Assembly: GCA_020847045.1 (NCBI GenBank)
Contig: JADLCT010000047.1
Location: forward strand, 1-64,000
Reading direction: 5' to 3'
DNA length: 64,000 nt
Source of the DNA: Bryobacterales bacterium
Lineage (GTDB): Bacteria; Acidobacteriota; Terriglobia; Bryobacterales; Bryobacteraceae
The translations under genes were made by a program, and so were the position numbers. The notes beneath the pieces are model-generated. The model saw only the letters and a program-made list of their open reading frames with translations. It was not told the origin of the DNA and did not search any database. Below, in pieces: positions 40 to 23,121 of this stretch. How positions within the stretch are numbered: the stretch's first letter is position 1; each line of letters starts with the position of its first letter.

Positions 40-1035
40 TCATATGCTAATCGTCGTCAGTTTTTGTGAGGGCGCTTTCAGCTCCGATGGCAACGAGAAC
101 CGCACGTCCTCATCCTTGATTTCGACCGCTTCCACGGACGTAAAGCCGAAGCGCTGTTGCAAGGCCCGGATGAGGCCCTGCACCAGGTTCTCCGGCGCCG
201 ATGCGCCCGCGGTGACGCCCACGCGCGCGGCCGTTTGAAACCACTCCGGCCGCAGATACCGTTCGTCGTCGATCAAATACGCGGGCACGCCCATGTTGAC
301 GCACACCTCGACCATGCGCCGCGAATTCGAGCTGTTTTGCGAACCCACCACCAGCAGCAGATCAATGCCCGGCGCCACGGCTTTCACCGCCTGCTGGCGG
401 TTCTCGGTGGCGTAGCAGATGTCCTGCGCCGGCGGCCCGTGCATCTTGGGAAACCGCTGCTTCAAAATGCCGACAATGCCGTTGGTCTCGTCCAGGCTGA
501 GCGTGGTCTGCGTGAGATAGACGATGCGTTCGGGGTTGGGCGGCTCCACCACGGCGGCCTCGGCCTCGTCGCTCACCACGATGGTGGACGCCGGGGCCTC
601 GCCCATCGTGCCGATCACCTCGTCGTGGTCGCGATGGCCGATCAACAAAATCGTGTAGCCTTCGCGCGCGAACTTCAGCGCTTCCAGATGAACCTTGGTC
701 ACCAGCGGGCAGGTGGCGTCGATTACATCGAGCTTCCGCGCCTGCGCTTCGCGGCGCACCTCGGGCGACACGCCATGCGCGCTGAAAATCACACGCGCCC
801 CGGAAGGCACCTCCGGCAGTTCATCCACGAAGATCGCGCCCAGCGAACGCAGCTCTTCCACCACGTGCCGGTTGTGCACGATCTCTTTCCGCACATAGAT
901 GGGAGCGCCAAACAGGTTCAGGGCGATCTTCACCACGTCGATCGCACGCACAACACCAGCACAAAACCCACGCGGGGTGAGCAGCAAGATGTGCTTCGTT
1001 TGGCCGTCCGCGGGCCCAGCGGCAGCAACATTCAT
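40..1035 (-). CDS. ispH: 4-hydroxy-3-methylbut-2-enyl diphosphate reductase (IspH/LytB)
   Basis: This is the last enzyme of the MEP isoprenoid pathway: it reduces HMBPP to IPP and DMAPP with a [4Fe-4S] cluster in the cytoplasm. The 331-residue protein has the family's cluster cysteines in PRGFCAGV (Cys25), DATCPLV and ICYATENR, and the substrate-binding SQNSSNS loop. Length is normal for the family, with about 14 extra N-terminal residues. The ATG is the only usable start before the conserved PRGFCAG block. An extended -10 box lies only 8 bases upstream, so the mRNA may be nearly leaderless. High confidence. Confidence 0.97.
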   Translation of the reverse strand: MNVAAAGPADGQTKHILLLTPRGFCAGVVRAIDVVKIALNLFGAPIYVRKEIVHNRHVVEELRSLGAIFVDELPEVPSGARVIFSAHGVSPEVRREAQARKLDVIDATCPLVTKVHLEALKFAREGYTILLIGHRDHDEVIGTMGEAPASTIVVSDEAEAAVVEPPNPERIVYLTQTTLSLDETNGIVGILKQRFPKMHGPPAQDICYATENRQQAVKAVAPGIDLLLVVGSQNSSNSRRMVEVCVNMGVPAYLIDDERYLRPEWFQTAARVGVTAGASAPENLVQGLIRALQQRFGFTSVEAVEIKDEDVRFSLPSELKAPSQKLTTISI

Positions 1036-1043
1036 GTAGGTCC

Positions 1044-1052
1044 ATTATAGCA
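1044..1052 (-). promoter_or_regulatory. Extended -10 promoter element of ispH
   Basis: Read on the minus strand the sequence is TGCTATAAT, a perfect extended -10 (TGnTATAAT). No good -35 is visible, as is usual for extended -10 promoters. A start point 6-7 bases downstream falls at about 1037, within a few bases of the ispH ATG (1035), and there is no clear ribosome binding site in between. Confidence 0.55.
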
Positions 1053-1107
1053 GCCATCACCGGTGAAACCCTCACGCGCCGGGGCTATCAACGCCGGGGC
1101 CGGGACG

Positions 1108-1749
1108 CTATTCCACCGGGAATTCCAGGTAAGGCGCCAGCACGCTCCGCACCCGGTCCGGCGTCCAGACGCCCTCGGGCGCGCGCTGCCCTTCCGCAAA
1201 GCGTATGTTGAACCGCGATCCGGAGGTCCGCCGCCGGAGCTGCTCCGGACTCATCGCCGTCACATCGCCCCCGGCCGCGCGCTCCTTCATCCGGGCCTCT
1301 TCGCGCTCGCGGCGGTCTCTCAGCGTGCGCAGCCGCATGTCAATCGAGCGCCGCCGCTGCGTGGAAGCCGTCCTGCGCTCACGCTCGAGTTGCCGCTCCT
1401 CGTAGGACTTCTCCACCGCCTGGTTCGAGGTGAACATGCGGTCCTTGAAACCGCCAAAGCCGCCGCCGTTCAGATGCAGCTCAATGTGGTCCTTCTTCAG
1501 ATGCACGGCGGTCACCTTGGCGCGCGCGCCTTTGCGGAGGCCCACGCCGTAGCGGCGGATGTCCTCGGCGATCTGAAAATCGTTGGTGGCCGAATCCTCG
1601 CCGGGACGGATGTCCACGCCGTTGCTGTCGCCCGGCATGTCGATGCGCGGGGCAACAATGCGGCCCTCGAAGGCCTGGCGGAGCGCGTCCTCGTTCTGCG
1701 CCCACGCCGCGCACGCAAGCCACAGCAGCACAGCCATCCGGCGAGTCAT
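1108..1749 (-). CDS. Exported hypothetical protein, basic and Arg/Glu-rich
   Basis: 213 residues. A short Sec-type signal peptide (residues 1-17, cut after AAWA) is followed by a mixed region and then, from about residue 110 to 175, a highly charged stretch with many Arg and Glu (YEERQLERERR, RDRREREEARMKER) that probably forms a long helix or coiled coil. I recognise no family. It is likely periplasmic. It starts 61 bp from the divergent metallo-beta-lactamase gene, so the two may share a control region. Coding is supported by the signal peptide and by the frame having the third-position GC bias of its neighbours. Confidence 0.7.
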   Translation of the reverse strand: MTRRMAVLLWLACAAWAQNEDALRQAFEGRIVAPRIDMPGDSNGVDIRPGEDSATNDFQIAEDIRRYGVGLRKGARAKVTAVHLKKDHIELHLNGGGFGGFKDRMFTSNQAVEKSYEERQLERERRTASTQRRRSIDMRLRTLRDRREREEARMKERAAGGDVTAMSPEQLRRRTSGSRFNIRFAEGQRAPEGVWTPDRVRSVLAPYLEFPVE

Positions 1750-1810
1750 GCCGCGTAGGATAGCATCGCCGCACGGACGTTGGCGGCGGTTCTGCTACGC
1801 TAATCCGTTT

Positions 1811-2668
1811 ATGCTGACTCGTCTTCTGCCGTTGCTCCTCGCCACCGCGCCCGTGTGGGCCCAGTATGCCCCGGCCAACCCGGAATGGAACCGCCCCGTT
1901 GCGCCCTTCCGCATCGCCGGGAACCTCTACTACGTGGGCGCCGAGGGCATTTCCTCATTCCTGCTCACTTCGCCGCAAGGCCACGTTCTCATCGACACCG
2001 GCTTTGAAGAAACCGCAGCGCAGGTGGAAGCCAACACGGCGAAGCTGGGGTTCCGCTTCACGGACATCAAGCTGATTCTCGCCACGCATGGCCACAACGA
2101 CCACACGGGCGGCATTGCCGTGGTGAAACGGAAAACCGGCGCGCGTTTTCTGGCCAACCCCGCCGAGCGCACCACCTTCCTGGAAGGCGGCGTCAACGAC
2201 TTCGCCTGGCCCGGCCGCTTCGCCTACCGCCCCGTGACGCCCGACGGAGCCTTGCGCGACGGCGAACCCGTGCGTGTGGGCCCGCTGGCGGTTACGCCGC
2301 ACTTCACTCCGGGCCACACCAAGGGGGGCACATCCTACGCCTTCACCGTCGAGGACTCCGGCCGGCCGCTGCGCGTGCTGGTGGCCTGCAGCGTCTCCAC
2401 GCCCGGCTACAAACTCGTGGACAACGCTCGCTACCCGGACATCGTGCGTGACGTGGAATCGACCATCGCCAAGATGCGTGCGCTTCCCGTGGACATCTTT
2501 CTTTCGGGGCACGGGTGGGATTTCGGACTCACCGAAAAGGCCAAGGCCCGCGCCACGGACGCAAGCGCCGCACTCTTTTTGAACGCGGCGGACTACCGCG
2601 CCTGGCTGGACAAGTCGCTGGCCGCGTTCCGCGCCGAACTGGACAAGCAGCGCGCCGCGCGCCGGTAG
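1811..2668 (+). CDS. Metallo-beta-lactamase, subclass B3 type
   Basis: 285 residues with a Sec signal peptide (residues 1-17, cut after PVWA), so periplasmic. It has the zinc ligands of subclass B3 enzymes: His93-Gly-His95-Asn-Asp97-His98, then His in TPGHTKGGTS and His in LSGHGWDF. The stretches NLYYVGAEGISSFLL and GHVLIDTGF are typical of B3 enzymes. The common SHAHxDH core is THGHNDH here. The family hydrolyses beta-lactams, but many chromosomal soil homologues are weak or act on other substrates. The ATG at 1811 was chosen because it begins the signal peptide; longer upstream frames would run through the divergent gene. Confidence 0.85.
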   Translation: MLTRLLPLLLATAPVWAQYAPANPEWNRPVAPFRIAGNLYYVGAEGISSFLLTSPQGHVLIDTGFEETAAQVEANTAKLGFRFTDIKLILATHGHNDHTGGIAVVKRKTGARFLANPAERTTFLEGGVNDFAWPGRFAYRPVTPDGALRDGEPVRVGPLAVTPHFTPGHTKGGTSYAFTVEDSGRPLRVLVACSVSTPGYKLVDNARYPDIVRDVESTIAKMRALPVDIFLSGHGWDFGLTEKAKARATDASAALFLNAADYRAWLDKSLAAFRAELDKQRAARR

Positions 2669-2679
2669 AGGACCGCACC

Positions 2680-2713
2680 AAAAGAAAAAGGCCAGCCCGT
2701 AGGCTGGCCCTTT
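2680..2713. terminator. Bidirectional intrinsic terminator
   Basis: An A-rich run (AAAAGAAAAA) is followed by an 8-bp perfect stem GGCCAGCC (2690-2697), loop CGTA, GGCTGGCC (2702-2709), then CTTT. It sits between the convergent metallo-beta-lactamase and TonB-dependent carrier genes. Read on the minus strand the stem is followed by a long T-run, so it should stop the long carrier transcript best. Confidence 0.85.
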
Positions 2714-2732
2714 CCGTAAACGCGCGTCAGGC

Positions 2733-5700
2733 TTAGAAGTCCAGACGCAGGCCCATCGTGATGATGCGGGGGCCGGACTGCGGGCCCGTGGCCGCGCCGA
2801 AGCCGGCGTTGCCGATCGTACCGTTCACTCCGAAGTTGGTCCGGTTGAACAGATTGAACATGTCGGCGCGATAGACGAAGTCAATCGCCCGCGTGTCGTT
2901 GATCGCCCAGCGGAAGCGCTTAGAGAGCGAGATGTTCTCTTCGCGCACCATCGGCTGGCGGAAGGCCGAGTGATACAAGGCCGCCGTGCCCATCGTGTAG
3001 GTGGGCGCCGAAGCAAACGGAGCGTTCGCGCCGGAGTTGAAGAAGCGGACGGTGGAGTTGCCCGGATCGAGCGTGCTGTAATCGACGCCCGTGCGCACCG
3101 AGCCGTTCACCTGGTTGGCCTTGGTGAGACGCGAGAACAACACGCCGTTGCCCAGCGGGTTGCCCGGCGTGGCCACCTGGAACAGGACGCCGGAGCGGTA
3201 CTGCAGGGCCGCCGACACGTTCCAGCCGCCCATCAGGAAGTTCAAGGCTTTGTTGTCCGAGTTCAGGAACTTCTTGCCTTTGCCCACCGGCAGCTCATAG
3301 GAGCTGAGGATGTTCAGGATGTGCGGCTGGTCGAACGGCAGGTAGGACTTCATGTCGTTCACGTTGTAGGCATCCTGCGCGCCGACGTTGAAGTGCTGCG
3401 AGAAGATCTGGCGGTAGTGGTTCGCCGCCAGCGACTTCGAGAAGGTGTAGCTGGACAGCAGTTGCCAGTCGCCGAAGCGGCGTTCCAGTTTGGCCTGGAA
3501 GGCGTCGTACCAGGTCTGGCCCTGGCCCGAGTTGCGGCTGATGACGCCGAAGAACTGCGGGAAGGGACGCAGCGACTGCGCCAGGGTCTGGTTGTCCGGG
3601 AAGGCGTCGTAGGGCTTTTTGAAGCCAGCGGCGGTCACCAGCGGATCGGAGATGCGGCGGCCCAACATGGTGCCCAGGGCCAGACGGCTGGCCGGCAACT
3701 GGTTGATGTCCACGCTCGAGTTCAGGCGCGTGCCGCGGTTGCCCACGTAAGCGAAGTCCAGCAGGAAATTCTTCACTTCATGCTGCAGGTTCAAACTCCA
3801 TTCGTGCACGCGCGGCGCCTTGCCGTAGGTGCTCGACATGTAATCCATATCGCCGGAGAGGATGCCCTGGGTGGGGCTCAACGACGGAGGATCGACGAAC
3901 CCGGCCGGGCGGGGAACACCGTTGTCCCAGTTCAGGGCCGCGTTCAAGCCATCGCTCACATAGCTCATCAGTCCGCTGCCATAGCCGGTGCGGCAGCCGC
4001 AGCCTCCGTTGCCGAGCGTCTGGTAGTAGACGCCCCAGCCGCCGCGCAGCACGGTCTTGTCGGCCAGGCGGTAGGCGAAGCCGACACGGGGGCCGATGTT
4101 GCTGAAGTCGGTCGGGTAGAACCGCTTCACGTTCTGGCGGCCGGCGCCGTAGCCGGCAAACACGAGCGTGCCCGGAAGCCCGCCCGCGCCCGGATTGGGC
4201 TTGTTGATGTCCACCATCGAGTAGTCGCCGTTCATTTCATGCCAGCCCACGGGAACCTCGTAGCGCATGCCCAGGTTCAGGGTCAGGCGCGGGGTCACCT
4301 TCCAGTTGTCCTGGATGTAGCCGGCCGTGTAGCCGTAGCGGATCTGCGCGATCAGCGTGGGCGGAGTGACGTTCATGTTGGCCGAATCGGTGGCGCCCAG
4401 CAGCATGCTGGCAAAGGCGTGGCCGGTGGTGGTGAGCGCGGTGGGCGAGGCCGTCTGCGCGCGGTTGAAGAAGAACTGGCCGTTGGTGCCGGCCAGGTCG
4501 AGCGGGTTGGAGAAGGTGCGCAGGTTGCGCCAGTCCCAGCCCATCTTCAACTCATGCTTGCCGTGCAGGTAGGTGATGCCCTGCGTCAGGTGATAGGTCC
4601 AGTTGAACTGCGTGCCGGTGGAGACCTTGCCGTCCTGGACGCCCCAGGCCGACAGGCCGTCGGCGCCGCTGAAGTTCACGCGGGGGAAGGCGTCGGACAG
4701 GCCGCTGACGCCGGGAATGCCGATCTTGGAGCCCCATCCCTTCTGCGCCGGGTTGTCCCAGCCCTGCTGCTGGCGGGTGAAGCTGAACGTCGAGTGAATC
4801 AGCAGCGTCGGCTTCAGCACCAGGTCATGGTTGACGCGGTAGTTTTCCGGACGCTGCGAGTTCGAGCCCAGACCGTTGCCGATCGGGCCGTCGAAGTTGG
4901 TGGTGTTCTGAATGTCCTGGTTCTGGCGGCTCATGTAGTAGGACACGCGGTTCGAGTTGGAAAACGCGTGGTCGAACTTCAGGCTCCAGTGGTAATCCTT
5001 CACGGCCGAGGTGTTCACGTAGGCGTAGTTGTTCGCCACGCCCGCGCCGGTCGGATTGGGCAGCAGCGGTAGTACGCCGTTGGCCACCTTGCTGAACCGG
5101 CTCTTGGGAATCAGGTTGCCGGAAAACGGCTGGCGCGTCGTGCCCGCCGTGGTCGACGGATCATAGATGGTCTGCGAACCGGCGAAGTTGCCGTCCTTCC
5201 AGGCCGCCGTCGGCACCGTCAACACCGGGAAGCCGAGCGAAGCCGGACGCAGATCCTTCGCATAGGTGAAGTACCAGAACGTCTTGTTCCGGCCGTCGTA
5301 CACCTTGGGAATCCAGACCGGGCCGCCAATGACGGCGCCCGCCTCATTGAAACGCTCTTTCGGGCGGAAGCCAGGCTTGTTGGCCGGGTTGCGGTTCACG
5401 TTGTAACCGGCCGCGTTGAAAATGTCCCGGCGCAGGTTCCAGAAAGCGCCGCCATGCAGATCGTTGGTGCCCGACTTGGTGATGAACACCTCCACGCCGC
5501 CGCCGAAACGGCCATACTCGGAGGAGTAGGTTCCGGTCAGCAGCTTGAACTCGCCAAACTGCTCCGAGGCGGGGAAGTTGAACGACACGCCGCCGGACTC
5601 CGGAATCGTCGCGCTGCCGCCGTCCAGGAGAATCTCCTTGGCGCGGCCGCCCGAACCGGAAATCGAGGTCTCCGCCGTGCCCGAGCTGACGCCCGGCATG

Positions 5701-6176
5701 TAACGGATGAAGGCTTCCGGGTTGCGGATGCCGCCTGTGAACAGGGGCAGCGTGTTCATGAACTTGTTGGAAAAGTTCTGACCGCGCGTGGCATCCTGTG
5801 CTTCGAGCAACGGCGCTTCGGCGGTGACTTCCACCGACTGCTGCACGTCGCCCACTTCCAGCGACATATCCAGGCCCACGCGCTGCGCAACACGGACTTC
5901 CAAACCCGTGCGTACTAGCTTCTTAAAGCCCGTCTGCTGGACGTCCACCTCGTAGTTGCCTACGGGCAGACTGCCGAAAACATACAGCCCGGCCGCGGAG
6001 GTGACCGTCTGAGTGGTGACGCCGGTTTCCAGGTTCTTCGCCGATACCTTTGCATTCGGTATGGCGGCGCCTCCCGGATCTGTGATCGTTCCCGCCATTG
6101 AACCTGTGCTCACCTGCCCGAAGCAGAGTGAACCAATGAGCAGGAACACCACGACAAACATTGTCTTTGTGTTCAT
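2733..6176 (-). CDS. TonB-dependent outer membrane carrier with carboxypeptidase-regulatory-like domain
   Basis: 1147 residues. Signal peptide at residues 1-20 (cut after LCFG), then a carboxypeptidase-regulatory-like beta domain (about 25-110: GSMAGTITDPGGAAIPNA, GLYVFGSLPVGNYEV), a plug domain (about 120-250) and a very large beta-barrel with many aromatic strands ending in the outer-membrane signature MGLRLDF with terminal Phe. This architecture is the Oar-like family expanded in Acidobacteria, thought to import large or oligomeric substrates, often glycans. The substrate cannot be read from the sequence. It forms its own transcription unit with a strong promoter, a palindromic operator candidate and a terminator. 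An AGAAGGGG ribosome binding site precedes the ATG. Confidence 0.93.
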   Translation of the reverse strand: MNTKTMFVVVFLLIGSLCFGQVSTGSMAGTITDPGGAAIPNAKVSAKNLETGVTTQTVTSAAGLYVFGSLPVGNYEVDVQQTGFKKLVRTGLEVRVAQRVGLDMSLEVGDVQQSVEVTAEAPLLEAQDATRGQNFSNKFMNTLPLFTGGIRNPEAFIRYMPGVSSGTAETSISGSGGRAKEILLDGGSATIPESGGVSFNFPASEQFGEFKLLTGTYSSEYGRFGGGVEVFITKSGTNDLHGGAFWNLRRDIFNAAGYNVNRNPANKPGFRPKERFNEAGAVIGGPVWIPKVYDGRNKTFWYFTYAKDLRPASLGFPVLTVPTAAWKDGNFAGSQTIYDPSTTAGTTRQPFSGNLIPKSRFSKVANGVLPLLPNPTGAGVANNYAYVNTSAVKDYHWSLKFDHAFSNSNRVSYYMSRQNQDIQNTTNFDGPIGNGLGSNSQRPENYRVNHDLVLKPTLLIHSTFSFTRQQQGWDNPAQKGWGSKIGIPGVSGLSDAFPRVNFSGADGLSAWGVQDGKVSTGTQFNWTYHLTQGITYLHGKHELKMGWDWRNLRTFSNPLDLAGTNGQFFFNRAQTASPTALTTTGHAFASMLLGATDSANMNVTPPTLIAQIRYGYTAGYIQDNWKVTPRLTLNLGMRYEVPVGWHEMNGDYSMVDINKPNPGAGGLPGTLVFAGYGAGRQNVKRFYPTDFSNIGPRVGFAYRLADKTVLRGGWGVYYQTLGNGGCGCRTGYGSGLMSYVSDGLNAALNWDNGVPRPAGFVDPPSLSPTQGILSGDMDYMSSTYGKAPRVHEWSLNLQHEVKNFLLDFAYVGNRGTRLNSSVDINQLPASRLALGTMLGRRISDPLVTAAGFKKPYDAFPDNQTLAQSLRPFPQFFGVISRNSGQGQTWYDAFQAKLERRFGDWQLLSSYTFSKSLAANHYRQIFSQHFNVGAQDAYNVNDMKSYLPFDQPHILNILSSYELPVGKGKKFLNSDNKALNFLMGGWNVSAALQYRSGVLFQVATPGNPLGNGVLFSRLTKANQVNGSVRTGVDYSTLDPGNSTVRFFNSGANAPFASAPTYTMGTAALYHSAFRQPMVREENISLSKRFRWAINDTRAIDFVYRADMFNLFNRTNFGVNGTIGNAGFGAATGPQSGPRIITMGLRLDF

Positions 6177-6244
6177 AAACCCCTTCTAAATCGAAACTTG
6201 AACCCAGACCTGTCCCCACGATAGAGAGAACAGGACGTTACTGA

Positions 6245-6273
6245 ATTGTATTTTCGGGAGAAGATCCCGTCAA
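6245..6273 (-). promoter_or_regulatory. Sigma70 promoter of the TonB-dependent carrier
   Basis: On the minus strand TTGACG (6268-6273) and TACAAT (6245-6250) are separated by exactly 17 bases. It is among the strongest vegetative promoter matches noticed in the window. Expected start near 6238 gives a leader of about 60 bases before the ATG at 6176. Confidence 0.8.
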
Positions 6274-6287
6274 GATAACGTTATCTT
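6272..6287. promoter_or_regulatory. 16-bp perfect palindrome, operator candidate
   Basis: AAGATAACGTTATCTT is a perfect palindrome with a central CG, the symmetry typical of LacI/GalR-family operators. Its last two bases overlap the -35 box of the carrier promoter. No LacI-type regulator gene lies in the window. The surrounding 6240-6345 is unusually AT-rich. Confidence 0.6.
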
Positions 6288-6394
6288 AACAAAATTTAAT
6301 CATTTTTGACGTGGAATCGTAATCCCAACAAAACAATTACCTTCCCCACGCCGCCTCCGGCCGGGCCTTTTGGTGCAGAAAAGTTCCACACCAA

Positions 6395-7534
6395 TTACAG
6401 TCTGAGGAAGATGCCACGCCGGTACATGAGCCAGGCCACCGCATAAAGCACCAGCACATGGGCCAGCCCGTACAGCGCACTCGCATTGATGGGCGAAGCC
6501 ATGCGCAGGAAAAAGCCGTCATAAACGGCCTTCTTGGCGCCGGTGATCGAAAGCACATCAGAGAGCACACTCGAGAGCGCATACACGGCAATCGCGTTCA
6601 ACCCGAAGATGACGAACGGCTGGGCCACACGCGTCCACTGCTTCAAATCCGCCAGCCACCAGGCCAGGGCCATGGCCAGAAAGGCGTGTCCGGAGGTGAA
6701 CAGGGCGAAGGATGTGGTCCACAGGTTCTTGTTGATGGGCAGCCAGCGGTCGCACACCAGGCCCAGCGCCACCAGCCCGAAGCCCCACACGGCCAGGGAG
6801 CGCAGCTTGGTGCGCGCGTCGTCGCCGGAGCGCAGGATACCGCCGCATACAAGCCCGAACAGCGTGTTGGCAATCGCGGGCAGCGTGGAGACAAGCCCCT
6901 CGGGATCCCATCGCAACTGGTTCCGGTACAGGTGGCCCGGCATCAGCAGCGAATCAATGTATTGGATGAAGTTTCCCTGCTGGTCCAGAATTCCCGCGCC
7001 ATAGCCGGGCACCGGATAGAGTTTCATCAGCGCCCAATAGCCGCCCAGCAGGCCAACGCTCCACACTACGAGCCCGCGCCCGCCGCCGTAGAACGCGATC
7101 AGCGACGCAAACAGGTAGCACAGGGCTATGCGCTGCAACACCCCGGGAATGCGCAGTGTGGCGAAATCGAAGTTCGGGAAGGCGTTCAGGAACAGGCCGA
7201 TGGCAAATAGGGCCCCTGCGCGGAGGGCGACGTGGCGCAGGAAGGCCTCCGGCGTCTCCCCGCGCGCCTTCCGCGAGGCAAAGCTGAAGGCCATGGCCAC
7301 GCCCATGATCCAGAGGAAAAACGGAAAAATCAGGTCCGTGGGCGTCCACCCGTTCCAGTTGGCGTGCAGCAAGGGCCAATAGGCGTTCGTATGGTCGCCC
7401 AGGTTGTTCACCAGGATCATCCCGGCGATGGTGGCGCCGCGAAAAGCGTCCAAAGACAGCAGGCGCCCGGCGCGGGGCGTTTTCGAATTCTCCAGGGGAA
7501 GATCCGCCGCCCTGCCCGGCGCCTGTGCCGCCAT
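6395..7534 (-). CDS. HGSNAT/NagX-like membrane acyltransferase (DUF5009)
   Basis: 379 residues with about 10 hydrophobic segments. The N-terminus has the family block RLLSLDAFRGATIAGMILVN and, after it, LLHANWNGWTPTDLIFPFFLWIMG. The histidine in HANWNG matches the catalytic His of human heparan-alpha-glucosaminide N-acetyltransferase, which moves acetyl groups from cytoplasmic acetyl-CoA to sugars on the other face of the membrane. Bacterial members occur in amino-sugar use clusters. It follows the Gfo/Idh oxidoreductase by 11 bases, so the two are probably one operon acting on sugars. The exact substrate is unknown. Confidence 0.85.
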   Translation of the reverse strand: MAAQAPGRAADLPLENSKTPRAGRLLSLDAFRGATIAGMILVNNLGDHTNAYWPLLHANWNGWTPTDLIFPFFLWIMGVAMAFSFASRKARGETPEAFLRHVALRAGALFAIGLFLNAFPNFDFATLRIPGVLQRIALCYLFASLIAFYGGGRGLVVWSVGLLGGYWALMKLYPVPGYGAGILDQQGNFIQYIDSLLMPGHLYRNQLRWDPEGLVSTLPAIANTLFGLVCGGILRSGDDARTKLRSLAVWGFGLVALGLVCDRWLPINKNLWTTSFALFTSGHAFLAMALAWWLADLKQWTRVAQPFVIFGLNAIAVYALSSVLSDVLSITGAKKAVYDGFFLRMASPINASALYGLAHVLVLYAVAWLMYRRGIFLRL

Positions 7535-10323: not shown

Positions 10324-11277
10324 ATGCTTACGCGCCGTTCCGCCCTTGCCGGCCTGGCCGCCTCGGCCGCCGGATCTCTCGCCGCCGCCCCCGCCGCCGT
10401 TCCCGCCACCAATAGCCCCGCCCTGCCGTTGTGCGCCTTCTCGAAGCACTTCCAGTGGACCAGCGTCGCCGAGACCGCCACGCTATGCAAAGAACTCGGC
10501 TACGACGGTGTCGACCTCACCGTCCGCGAAGGCGGCCATGTACTGCCCGCCCGCGTCGCCAGCGACCTGCCGCGCGCCGTTGAGACAATCCACAAAGCGG
10601 GGCTCTCGACGCCGATGGTCACCGCCGGCATTGTCGACGCCGCCTCGCCTCACGCCGAGGCCATTCTGAAGACGCTGGCCTCGCTCGGCATCAAACGCTA
10701 CCGTTGGGGCGGCTTCCGGTGGGACGAAAAGCAGAAGCCCGAGGCGCAGATCGCCGCCTTCTACGACCGCACCAAGCAACTGGACGCCCTGAACCGCGCC
10801 CATGGCATGTGCGCCATGTACCACACCCACTCCGGACCCGGCCAGTTCGGCAACGCCTTCTGGGACATATTCACCGTCACGCGCGAGTTCTCTCCCGAAT
10901 CCATCAGCATCAACTTCGACATCGGCCACGCCACCGTCGAAGGCGGCTTGGGCGCCTGGATGTCCACCTCGCGCATGTTGCTGCCTTATACGCGCGGCAT
11001 CGCCGTCAAGGATTTCTACTGGGAAAAGAACGCGCGCGGCGTGTGGGCCCCGCGCTGGTGCGCCCTCGGCAAGGGTATGGTGAACCTGCCGCGCTTCTTC
11101 GGCTATGTGAAGGAGGCCGGCTTCACCGGACCCGTGCAACTGCACCTGGAGTACCCCGAAATGGGCGACGCGCACACGGGGAAGGGAATGACCATCGAGC
11201 GCTCCGAGTTCCTCCGCCTGATGCGCGCCGACATCGCCACCGTGCGCGGCGCAATGCGGCAGGCCGGGCTGGTTTAG
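10324..11277 (+). CDS. Sugar phosphate isomerase/epimerase family protein, Tat leader
   Basis: 317 residues. The twin-arginine leader LTRRSALAGLAASAAG is followed by a xylose-isomerase-like TIM barrel. Metal and substrate residues of the family are seen in YDGVDLTVREGGH, MYHTHSG, NFDIGHA and HLEYPEMGD. The role is probably sugar isomerisation or epimerisation outside the cytoplasm, which would fit the Tat-exported Gfo/Idh enzyme two genes away. The ATG at 10324 was chosen because it begins the leader. Its stop overlaps the convergent DUF72 gene by 4 bases. Confidence 0.85.
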   Translation: MLTRRSALAGLAASAAGSLAAAPAAVPATNSPALPLCAFSKHFQWTSVAETATLCKELGYDGVDLTVREGGHVLPARVASDLPRAVETIHKAGLSTPMVTAGIVDAASPHAEAILKTLASLGIKRYRWGGFRWDEKQKPEAQIAAFYDRTKQLDALNRAHGMCAMYHTHSGPGQFGNAFWDIFTVTREFSPESISINFDIGHATVEGGLGAWMSTSRMLLPYTRGIAVKDFYWEKNARGVWAPRWCALGKGMVNLPRFFGYVKEAGFTGPVQLHLEYPEMGDAHTGKGMTIERSEFLRLMRADIATVRGAMRQAGLV

Positions 11278-12185
11278 GCGGCCAGGTCGAACAGCGCGGG
11301 CGCTCCGGCAGCCGGCGCCGTATCATGATGGGCCGCCGCGGCATGACGCGCCGGCGCCGCCACAGGACCGCCACCCAACAACGACTGCATCTGCATGCTG
11401 TTCACCACGCTCTTGCCCTCGCCGTCGTTGGCGAACACCACATACACCTCTCCGGCGAACCGGCGCAGATGTTCAATGCGCGGCAGCCAGGCGTCCATCT
11501 CGGCCAGCGAGAAGAAGTGGCCGTTGCCCGTGCGCTGCCCGTTCCGCGTGGCCGTGCGGTCGTCAAATTCGGCAAACGCCGGGCCCGCCGAGGCGCCGTA
11601 CAGCTTCACATAGCCAACCTGCGTGGTCAGCCGCGACGAAGGCGGTGTGGCGCGCAGGGTCCTCGGCTGCTCCAGGTTGCAGAAACCGATCCGGTAATCC
11701 ACAAGCGTGCCAATGGCCTCGTCCACTGTCCAGGAGGCGTGCCGCAGCTCGGCCACCAGCGGGAAGGCGGAAAAGGCTCGCCGCAACTGAATCAGGAAGT
11801 CACGGTTCTCACTGGTGAAGCGGAACGACGAGGGCATCTGCATCAGCAGCGCGCCCAATTGCCCGCGGTCCAGCAACGGTTGCAGCCCCTGGGTGAATCG
11901 AGCCACGCTGGCCGCATCAAGCTGCCGCTCGTGCGTGAACTGCCGGTGCAGACGGGCCGTGAATTTGAACTGGCCGTTGTGACCCGCCTGGGCCCCCCAC
12001 AGGCGAGCCAGCTCAGGCCTTATAAATTGATAGAAGGTGCTGTCGATTTCTAATGTGTCCAGGCGTCCGGCCAGGAAGTCCAGGGCGTGAAAGCCGCGCG
12101 CTCGGGGGCGCGGATAAACTGCCCGTTCCCAACTGGCGTGCGTCCATCCGGAAACTCCACACCGTACCGAAAGTGTTGTGTTCAA
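11274..12185 (-). CDS. DUF72 (YecE-like) domain protein
   Basis: 303 residues; TIM-barrel DUF72 family with the conserved blocks VRCGVSGW, LDTLEIDSTFYQF, FKFTARLHRQFTHER, LLMQMPSSFR and AELRHASW. The last ~35 residues are Ala/His-rich and not part of the domain. The molecular function of DUF72 is unknown. The start is TTG (12183-12185) with AGAGGAG seven bases upstream. A strong promoter and a GTTC-N7-GTTC repeat, the LexA operator type of Alphaproteobacteria, lie 26-75 bases upstream, which points to induction by DNA damage. Confidence 0.88.
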   Translation of the reverse strand: MNTTLSVRCGVSGWTHASWERAVYPRPRARGFHALDFLAGRLDTLEIDSTFYQFIRPELARLWGAQAGHNGQFKFTARLHRQFTHERQLDAASVARFTQGLQPLLDRGQLGALLMQMPSSFRFTSENRDFLIQLRRAFSAFPLVAELRHASWTVDEAIGTLVDYRIGFCNLEQPRTLRATPPSSRLTTQVGYVKLYGASAGPAFAEFDDRTATRNGQRTGNGHFFSLAEMDAWLPRIEHLRRFAGEVYVVFANDGEGKSVVNSMQMQSLLGGGPVAAPARHAAAAHHDTAPAAGAPALFDLAA

Positions 12186-12210
12186 GGCGGCTCTCCTCTG
12201 CTCGACAATC

Positions 12211-12225
12211 GTTCGCTATTTGTTC
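12211..12225 (-). promoter_or_regulatory. Putative LexA (SOS) box GTTC-N7-GTTC
   Basis: The plus strand reads GTTCGCTATTTGTTC: two GTTC half sites spaced by exactly 7 bases, the direct-repeat SOS box known from Alphaproteobacteria and some other phyla. It lies 6 bases downstream of the -10 of the DUF72 promoter, covering the expected start site, which is where a repressor would act. No lexA or imuAB gene is in the window. Confidence 0.6.
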
Positions 12226-12231
12226 GCCACC

Positions 12232-12260
12232 AGAATACGGCGAGGCGAAGAAAAGGTCAA
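12232..12260 (-). promoter_or_regulatory. Sigma70 promoter of the DUF72 gene
   Basis: On the minus strand TTGACC (12255-12260), a spacer of 17 bases, then TATTCT (12232-12237). Expected start near 12225 gives a leader of about 40 bases. The 12270-12300 stretch upstream is AT-rich and may act as an UP element. Confidence 0.65.
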
Positions 12261-12421
12261 GAGAAAAATTCGCCCTGAAATTCAAAATTATTTTCCGGCC
12301 GGGTAACCACCCCTTGGGGCTCTGCGCCTACATTACATCCCCGTTACGACAGCGGGCGCCGCACCCCTCATCACCCAACTTAGGCGCCCGCTACTCCAAC
12401 CACCTCACCCGCCGGTCCGTT

Positions 12422-13378
12422 TCACTCGTTGAACATTCCTTCAAACAGAACGCTGCTCAGATAGCGCTCGCCGGAATCGGGCAGGATGACGACGATGGTT
12501 TTGCCGGCCATTTCGGGTTCGGCGGCCACGCGCACGGCGGCCGCCACGGCGGCGCCGCAGGAGATGCCGCACAGAATCCCCTCCTGGAACGACATGCGGC
12601 GGGCCATCTCGATGGATTCATCGTTGGTCACCTGCTCCACGCGGTCCACGACGCTGAGATCGAGCGTGTCGGGAATGAAGCCGGCGCCGAGACCTTGAAT
12701 CTTGTGCGGACCAGGCTTGATTGGCTCGCCCTTCAGCGTCTGCGTAATCACCGGACTGGCCGAAGGCTCGACGCCGATCGACACGATATTCTTCCCGCGC
12801 GCCTGCTTGAAGTAGCGCGAGATGCCCGTGATGGTGCCGCCCGTGCCGATGCCGCTCACCAGAACGTCCATGCCGCCGTTGGTGTCGTCCCAGATCTCAG
12901 GACCGGTCGTCTCAAAATGAATCTTCGGGTTGGCCGGGTTCTTGAACTGCTGTGGAATCAGCCAGTGTTTCGGATCGGCCGAGGCGATCTCCTCGGCTTT
13001 CTGAATGGCCCCCTTCATCCCGGCCGCGCCTTCGGTCAACACGAGGCGTGCGCCAAAGGCCTTCAGCACCTTCCGGCGCTCGATCGACATCGTCTCGGGC
13101 ATCGTCAGCGTGATCGGATAGCCGCGCGCCGCGGCCACGAAGGCCAGCGCGATGCCAGTGTTGCCGCTGGTGGGCTCCACCAGCTCCATGCCGGGCTTCA
13201 GGGTGCCGCTTTTTTCCGCTTCCCAGATCATCGACGCGCCAATGCGGCACTTCACCGAGTAAGCAGGGTTGCGGCCTTCGACCTTGGCCAGCACGGTCGC
13301 CTTCAAACCCTGAGTCACCCGGTTCAGGCGCACCAGCGGGGTCCGGCCGATGCTCAAGGAATTATCGTTGAAAACCAT
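12422..13378 (-). CDS. cysK: Cysteine synthase A (O-acetylserine sulfhydrylase)
   Basis: 318 residues. PLP enzyme that makes cysteine from O-acetylserine and sulfide. The Schiff-base lysine is in AYSVKCRIG, the substrate loop is [13 protein letters not shown] and the phosphate loop [11 protein letters not shown]. Length and motifs are standard. It lies 54 bases behind an Rrf2 regulator on the same strand, with an AAGGAG site before the ATG; this is the arrangement seen for CymR-type control of cysteine metabolism. Confidence 0.96.
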
Positions 13379-22047: not shown

Positions 22048-23121
22048 GTGCAGACCGTCCACATATCCGAAGCCCTCTCGCCGTACACTCAAGGGTGGAG
22101 CCGCGGCGCGCCGCCCGCCCGCAGGCCCGCTACTCCCATGTCCAGGCAAACGGTGTTACGCGTGATGGTGTTGGGGTTTGGCCTGGCCGTTCTGCTGGTG
22201 ATCGCCGCGGCCTATGTTGGCTATGAGGGTTCGCTCTCCATTCAAACGAACGCGCGCGACCTGGTGCGCGAGCACCTGCTGAACACCGACCGCGCCGCCA
22301 CCCTGGAAAAGCAGATCGAGCAGCAGTCGCAGCATCTGCTCGGCGGTCTGATCTGGATTCTGGGCGCCTGCTTCGTGCTCGCCGTGGTCGGCTCGGCGCT
22401 CACCATCTGGACCACCGACAAGGCGTTCCGGCAGTTGGAGTGGCAGGCCGGCGAGCTGAGCCGCGTCTCCTGGAACCTGGTGGAGAGCCATGAAAAGGTG
22501 GCCCGCCGGTTCTCCCACGAAATCCATGACGAACTGGGCCAGGCCATGGCGGGCGTGAAAGGCATCATGAAGCGCATCACGCCGGAGGAGCTGCCGGGCC
22601 AGCGCGAAGAGGTGCTCGGACTGCTGGACGAGGTGATGTCGGGCATCCGCGAGCTGTCGCAACTGCTGCGCCCCGTGATCCTCGATGACTTCGGCCTGGA
22701 CGCCGGCCTGCGCTGGCTCTCCGAGCGTTTCATGCAGCGGACGCGCATTCAGGTGGACTACTCTTCGAACTACTCGGGACGCTTGTCCGACGAGTTGGAG
22801 ACCCAGTTGTTCCGCATTGCGCAGGAGGCCCTGACCAACATCGCCCGGCACTCCGGCGCCACCGCGGCCACCGTTTCGCTCTCCGTGCAGGGCGGCCATG
22901 TGCGCATGGAGATTGCCGACAATGGCAAAGGAATGCCCGAACCCTTCCGCACGCCACATCCGGGCATCGGCATGGTGGGCATGCGCGCCCGCGCGCGGCA
23001 GGTGCGGGGCGAGGTGAAGGTGGAGAACCGCTCGCAGGGCGGAGTGCGCGTGGTGGTCGACACGCCGTTCCGCGGACAGGAGGAAGATGGCGGGGAAGAA
23101 AATTCGAATTCTGCTTGCTGA
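22048..23121 (+). CDS. NarL-type sensor histidine kinase
   Basis: 357 residues. Two membrane segments (about residues 36-58 and 95-120) enclose a periplasmic loop of only ~35 residues. The HisKA_3 dimerisation box has phospho-acceptor His in FSHEIHDELGQAMAG, and the ATPase domain has EALTNIARHS, DNGKGM and GIGMVGMRARA. GTG at 22048 was chosen for its AGGAAGG site (22032-22038); the ATG at 22138 has none. The gene overlaps the response regulator by 35 bases. It is divergent from the metal efflux operon, so it may control it, but the short sensor loop gives no clue to the signal. Confidence 0.9.
   Translation: MQTVHISEALSPYTQGWSRGAPPARRPATPMSRQTVLRVMVLGFGLAVLLVIAAAYVGYEGSLSIQTNARDLVREHLLNTDRAATLEKQIEQQSQHLLGGLIWILGACFVLAVVGSALTIWTTDKAFRQLEWQAGELSRVSWNLVESHEKVARRFSHEIHDELGQAMAGVKGIMKRITPEELPGQREEVLGLLDEVMSGIRELSQLLRPVILDDFGLDAGLRWLSERFMQRTRIQVDYSSNYSGRLSDELETQLFRIAQEALTNIARHSGATAATVSLSVQGGHVRMEIADNGKGMPEPFRTPHPGIGMVGMRARARQVRGEVKVENRSQGGVRVVVDTPFRGQEEDGGEENSNSAC

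Follow-up and report, generated by a model that had tools for sequence, protein, structure and literature searches.

The window analysed here, a stretch of 64 kb, is contig C47 of the 4.8 Mb draft genome G000 and carries on its minus strand a DUF72 gene, whose product matches the PF01904 profile over residues 25-268 (E = 4.1e-39). The closest named relatives of this DUF72 protein are found in metagenome genomes labelled Bryobacterales or Acidobacteria, and it shares 88% identity with that of the isolate SJ664. The TTG start codon is backed by an ATG at the equivalent position in the nearest relative (L032). The features of the locus are given below; the promoter hexamers and the Shine-Dalgarno-like motif were read from the sequence.

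11274..12185, minus strand: DUF72 (PF01904) gene, 303 aa, TTG start at 12185, member of the SOS-boxed Bryobacterales clade
12193..12199, minus strand: Shine-Dalgarno-like AGAGGAG
12211..12228, minus strand: predicted proximal LexA box GGCGAACAAATAGCGAAC, 18 bp, covering the expected transcription start
12232..12237, minus strand: -10 hexamer TATTCT with a 17-nt spacer, identical in G001 and G002
12244..12261, plus strand: second, weaker box GGCGAAGAAAAGGTCAAG in inverted orientation, 12.4 bits, overlapping the -35 hexamer and the spacer
12255..12260, minus strand: -35 hexamer TTGACC, identical in G001 and G002
12422..13378, minus strand: cysK-like gene directly upstream of DUF72, a conserved neighbour outside the predicted switch

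Upstream of DUF72 and on the same strand lie the cysK-like gene and an Rrf2-like gene, both named by reading their sequences and not by a family search. The gap between cysK and DUF72 is 236 bp in the window, and the order Rrf2-cysK-DUF72 is kept in 11 of the 21 loci compared. The gene downstream of DUF72 varies, and no conserved operon partner was found. Plasmid-borne DUF72 genes are distant relatives only.

A predicted operator over the DUF72 promoter

In the direction of the gene, TTGACC (12260-12255) is followed by the N17 spacer, TATTCT (12237-12232), 3 nt, the box GGCGAACAAATAGCGAAC, AGAGGAG and TTG. The proximal box is a direct repeat of GCGAAC with an 11-bp period; on the plus strand GTTC stands at 12211-12214 and 12222-12225, so that GTTC-N7-GTTC spans 12211-12225. 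A sequence-only reading had described this repeat just downstream of a TTGACC-N17-TATTCT promoter and over the expected transcription start, with AGAGGAG before TTG, and every one of these elements lies where it was placed. As to the extent of the repeat, GTTC-N7-GTTC is contained in the box, but the real element is longer (18 bp), and in the majority of DUF72 promoters it occurs twice.

The predicted operator overlaps the promoter, with the proximal box 3 nt past the -10 hexamer and the second box, identical in two congeners, over the -35 hexamer. Two boxes of at least 12 bits are present in 56 of 79 DUF72 promoters, the pairs being mostly spaced 57-58 bp apart when direct and 27-33 bp apart when inverted, and a TTGnnn/TAnnnT promoter ends 2-9 nt ahead of the proximal box in 51 of the 79 loci. 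This paired-box architecture, with its presumed occupancy by LexA, would be the expected look of a tightly repressed SOS promoter.

Chance occurrence and an independent motif

Bare GTTC-N7-GTTC has three matches in the window against 1.62 expected, and 24 of 100 shuffles reach three. This frequency is no above-chance excess, so the bare repeat was rejected as evidence and could not carry the claim alone. A genome-wide search for GCGAAC-N5-GCGAAC with one mismatch returned many matches and was set aside as uninformative.

The upstream regions of lexA (30 loci) and recA from the genome and its relatives, with DUF72 sequence excluded and near-duplicates dropped to leave 44 sequences, were submitted to an EM motif search. 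The motif obtained de novo was GGCGAAnAAAaagcGAAA, found as such or as its reverse complement in each of the ten best runs listed. The resulting lexA/recA matrix scores the DUF72 box of the window at 24.1 bits, the top site in the 64 kb (runner-up 13.2 bits), and in 4.8 Mb of sequence simulated with matching dinucleotide frequencies the top site reached 21.5 bits, below that of the DUF72 box. The pattern GGCGAANAANNNNCGAA, picked after such sites had been seen, has exactly two perfect matches in the 4.8 Mb genome, one before DUF72 and the other before lexA.

Conservation across DUF72 genes

In the comparison that the sequence-only reading had called for, the box is conserved ahead of DUF72 orthologues: 72 of the 79 named loci have a box of at least 15 bits and 58 one of at least 20 bits. 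In a set of 30 orthologues the box scores at least 15 bits in 21 and at least 20 bits in 18, and of 20 distant DUF72 paralogues drawn from those genomes one reaches 15 bits; this set shares some contigs with the 79 loci and is not fully independent of them. Shuffled sequences score at least 15 bits in 0.1% of cases. In 0.9 Mb of flanks around the 79 loci there is just one other site of at least 18 bits, and when, in the comparison of the 30 orthologues, 226 ORF-upstream windows from the flanks, DUF72 promoters included, were ranked, the top 12 scores were all at DUF72.

In a 100-protein tree the DUF72 proteins with boxed genes form one clade (100/98) and the paralogues another (100/99), while orthologues of other Acidobacteriota fall outside the boxed clade, which in the set examined is confined to the order Bryobacterales (Acidobacteriota). 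Upstream of the DUF72 homologues of other Acidobacteriota classes the Bryobacterales box is absent and no convincing shared motif was found. Since there is one boxed clade, with the other Acidobacteriota outside it and without the box, SOS control of DUF72 by the Bryobacterales-type box looks like a lineage-specific gain in Bryobacterales; LexA boxes of another kind may serve in the other classes. Bryobacterales bacterium F-183 also has a DUF72 gene with the box (L303). Two public records titled 'Bordetella parapertussis' and 'Acidimicrobiia' (L269 and L250) also carry a boxed Bryobacterales-type DUF72 locus; their titles are probably mislabelled.

In G010 (L223, G010:C1:1468000-1480000, 631-6730) the gene immediately preceding imuA-imuB-dnaE2 is a DUF72 gene that does not belong to the boxed clade. 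It has no box of its own, and an SOS box GGCGAATAAATGGCGAAT of 22.4 bits sits between it and imuA. Judged by this gene order and predicted box, it is a second, independent association of DUF72 with the SOS response, represented by a single case.

The same box at lexA, recA and polymerase genes

The lexA gene of G000 (TIGR00498 profile match, E = 8.3e-55), in whose translation the Ala-Gly cleavage site and the Ser/Lys positions were found by eye to be retained, is preceded by the box GGCGAACAATAAACGAA at C84:11252-11268 (20.5 bits), which matches GGCGAACAAATAGCGAA of DUF72. Boxes at lexA itself occur in many genera, and relatives carry the box also at recA, at imuA-imuB-dnaE2 cassettes and at some other Y-family polymerase genes. 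Several relatives are boxed at recA, with scores of up to 29.1 bits. The sequence-only reading had named lexA, recA and imuA/imuB/dnaE2 as places to search for the same motif. It is present at the genome's own lexA, with GTTTC and not GTTC on one side, but at the main recA of G000 no good box was found (top site 9.8 bits by the lexA/recA matrix). A box at recA is common in LexA regulons but not indispensable; its absence here concerns the make-up of the regulon in G000 and not the membership of DUF72 in it. Cassettes of relatives are boxed at 17.6-25.0 bits in four of six loci (L168, L169, L170 and L172), to which G010 is added, but L167 and L171 have no box by the same matrix.

Two tandem recA-family genes of G000 (C20:77511-78473 and 78621-79580, L206; 543 and 369 bits), present also in G001, have a good LexA box upstream of neither. 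A second, more divergent lexA-like gene (G000:C42:20399-21046, L174; 131.7 bits) is without a box.

The LexA box that Mazon and co-workers described in Acidobacterium capsulatum is reportedly GTTC-N7-GTTC, and their paper is said to have also described a recA that is inducible by damage and has no LexA box. A published LexA box of this species (Mazon et al. 2006) is cited in PMC3323433. The 11-bp direct-repeat architecture is that of alphaproteobacterial LexA sites (PMC8565304). The earlier attribution to the alphaproteobacterial site calls for caution. It holds for this architecture, for the GAAC/GTTC half-sites and for the exact GTTC-N7-GTTC within the DUF72 box, but the DNA, judged by the nearest DUF72 relatives, comes from an acidobacterium and not from an alphaproteobacterium, and the Bryobacterales consensus GGCGAAnAAAaagcGAAA is longer and asymmetric, the distal half of the lexA/recA boxes being mostly GAAA and not GAAC. 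Within the clade the same box stands at promoters of the core SOS regulon (lexA, recA, imuA-imuB-dnaE2 and dinB); unlike these genes, DUF72 does not figure as a canonical SOS gene in the literature examined on the SOS response.

Fold and conserved residues of the DUF72 protein

The AlphaFold model of the protein has a mean pLDDT of 87. A structure search with it returned the DUF72 structures 1ZTV, 1VPY and 1VPQ at the top (Z 29-30), followed at Z of about 12-15 by a mixed group of MbnB, sugar epimerases, UVDE and endonuclease IV. The entries 4GLE, 5ZHZ and 1QTW, at Z 11.8-12.9, are tied with sugar epimerases, and the match to the UVDE/endonuclease IV fold is no better than that to sugar epimerases or MbnB. 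The structure searches indicated no function past the DUF72/TIM-barrel class. Tm1631 (1VPQ) and EF0366 (1VPY/1ZTV) share family and fold with the protein of the window (Z about 30) but are distant in sequence (20-24% identity), and damage-inducible control of either was not found in the literature searched.

The residues E46, E146, R148, H149, S151, W152 and N170 are invariant and include the equivalent of Tm1631 Arg145, which was proposed to bind phosphate. The aromatic pair F51-Y52 lies, in an alignment by eye, at the place of the DNA-stacking Tyr47/Tyr48 of Tm1631. For Tm1631, modelling predicts binding and cutting of damaged DNA (PMC3828134; PMC4939058).

Interpretation and alternative explanations

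LexA control of DUF72 is supported by the independent lexA/recA motif, the box at the genome's own lexA, the conservation and the paired geometry, and we consider the element at 12211-12228 to be very probably a LexA operator of the Bryobacterales SOS system that controls DUF72. The LexA assignment made by the sequence-only reading is largely supported, but the literal GTTC-N7-GTTC on which it drew is by itself no commoner than chance. LexA bound at 12211-12228, where a sigma-70-type promoter would start transcription, would keep DUF72 off, and would probably occupy the second box over the -35 region as well. Upon DNA damage RecA would be activated, LexA would cleave itself and DUF72 would be made. 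The TIM barrel would then most likely recognise or process damaged DNA in the SOS response; on balance we favour such a DNA-lesion role, in which nuclease chemistry would be one possibility. Counting against the overall reading are the main recA and the divergent lexA-like gene of G000, both without a good box, the restriction of the box to one lineage, the G010 gene with no box of its own, and the unspecific fold match to UVDE/endonuclease IV.

The DUF72 family is widespread and has been assigned no function; a role in DNA repair was suggested earlier by two modelling studies and a survey of gene neighbourhoods, without regulatory evidence. DUF72 genes are enriched near polB2, and bacterial polB2 neighbourhoods are enriched in lexA too (PMC11791011). 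DUF72 thus stands in a DNA-damage context in polB2 mutasomes as in the present clade, yet there the link is by gene neighbourhood, whereas here predicted LexA boxes lie at DUF72's own promoter and imuA-imuB-dnaE2 is once its neighbour. Among the open-access papers mentioning DUF72, the literature behind subscription being outside this search, no report of LexA control of the gene was found. That a predicted LexA operator, mostly paired, is conserved throughout an order speaks independently for a damage function and guides the choice of assays; a well-defined predicted LexA box for Bryobacterales is also gained. We tentatively suggest that DUF72 proteins could be a hitherto unnoticed class of enzymes, UVDE-like TIM barrels, that are induced by damage and act on DNA lesions. 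Error-prone/SOS repair would have taken them in on at least two occasions, once with paired LexA operators throughout the Bryobacterales and once as a neighbour of imuA-imuB-dnaE2.

DUF72 could also be SOS-controlled and act other than as a nuclease, as a translesion synthesis accessory, as a protein that senses lesions or serves the nucleotide pool, or as a TIM-barrel enzyme whose substrate is a small nucleotide. We hold this to be possible but somewhat doubtful: metal ions are not seen in the putative active site of DUF72 crystal structures (PMC3828134), MbnB and sugar epimerases are fold neighbours at equal or better Z, a DUF72 gene adjoins imuA-imuB-dnaE2 in G010, and DUF72 genes are enriched next to polB2 mutasomes (PMC11791011), but the invariant E146, R148, H149, S151 and W152, together with F51-Y52, at the places of Tm1631 Arg145 and Tyr47/Tyr48, fit a nucleic-acid ligand.

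It is improbable that the box belongs to another regulator sharing the targets of LexA, such as a damage regulator not yet known. The own recA without a box would agree with it, as would the fact that the link between LexA and the box is drawn from sequence comparison; however, lexA is boxed in many genera, as expected from LexA autoregulation, recA and imuA cassettes are boxed too, and the 11-bp direct repeat is a known LexA architecture. We regard as very unlikely that DUF72 is co-expressed with the upstream cysK under Rrf2-type sulfur/redox control and the repeat is incidental: the recurrent Rrf2-cysK-DUF72 order and the 236-bp gap speak for it, but DUF72 carries a promoter and a box of its own, loci in which an adjacent cysK was not found (e.g., L214 and L216) retain the box, and lexA, recA and imuA bear the same box. 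A chance match, to which the chance-level frequency of the bare repeat in the window would point, has a negligible probability against the independent motif, its genome-wide rarity and the paralogue control, and is already refuted by the conservation data.

Further box-like sites

One-mismatch matches to GGCGAANAANNNNCGAA were rejected as extra regulon members, as most are intragenic; those between genes stand before unrelated ones (cytochrome/DUF1549, sigma-54 activator, radical SAM), so that no member is claimed. A Y-family polymerase gene of G000 (C97:60016-60468, L204:1249-2511) has a weaker box GGAGAATATAAGGCGAAT of 12.6 bits, with a core identical in G001, and is a probable further SOS gene by this predicted site. 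The genus g25 (G026, G028-G031 and G033), which is without DUF72, has a drifted AGCGAnnAAAnnnCGAA-like box at two genes, recA and one for a Y-family polymerase. Within the window, a weaker box-like sequence GGGGAAGAAAATTCGAAT of 11.4 bits, similar in G001, lies at 23092-23109, where a response-regulator-like gene starts within the end of a histidine-kinase-like one, and is probably coding.
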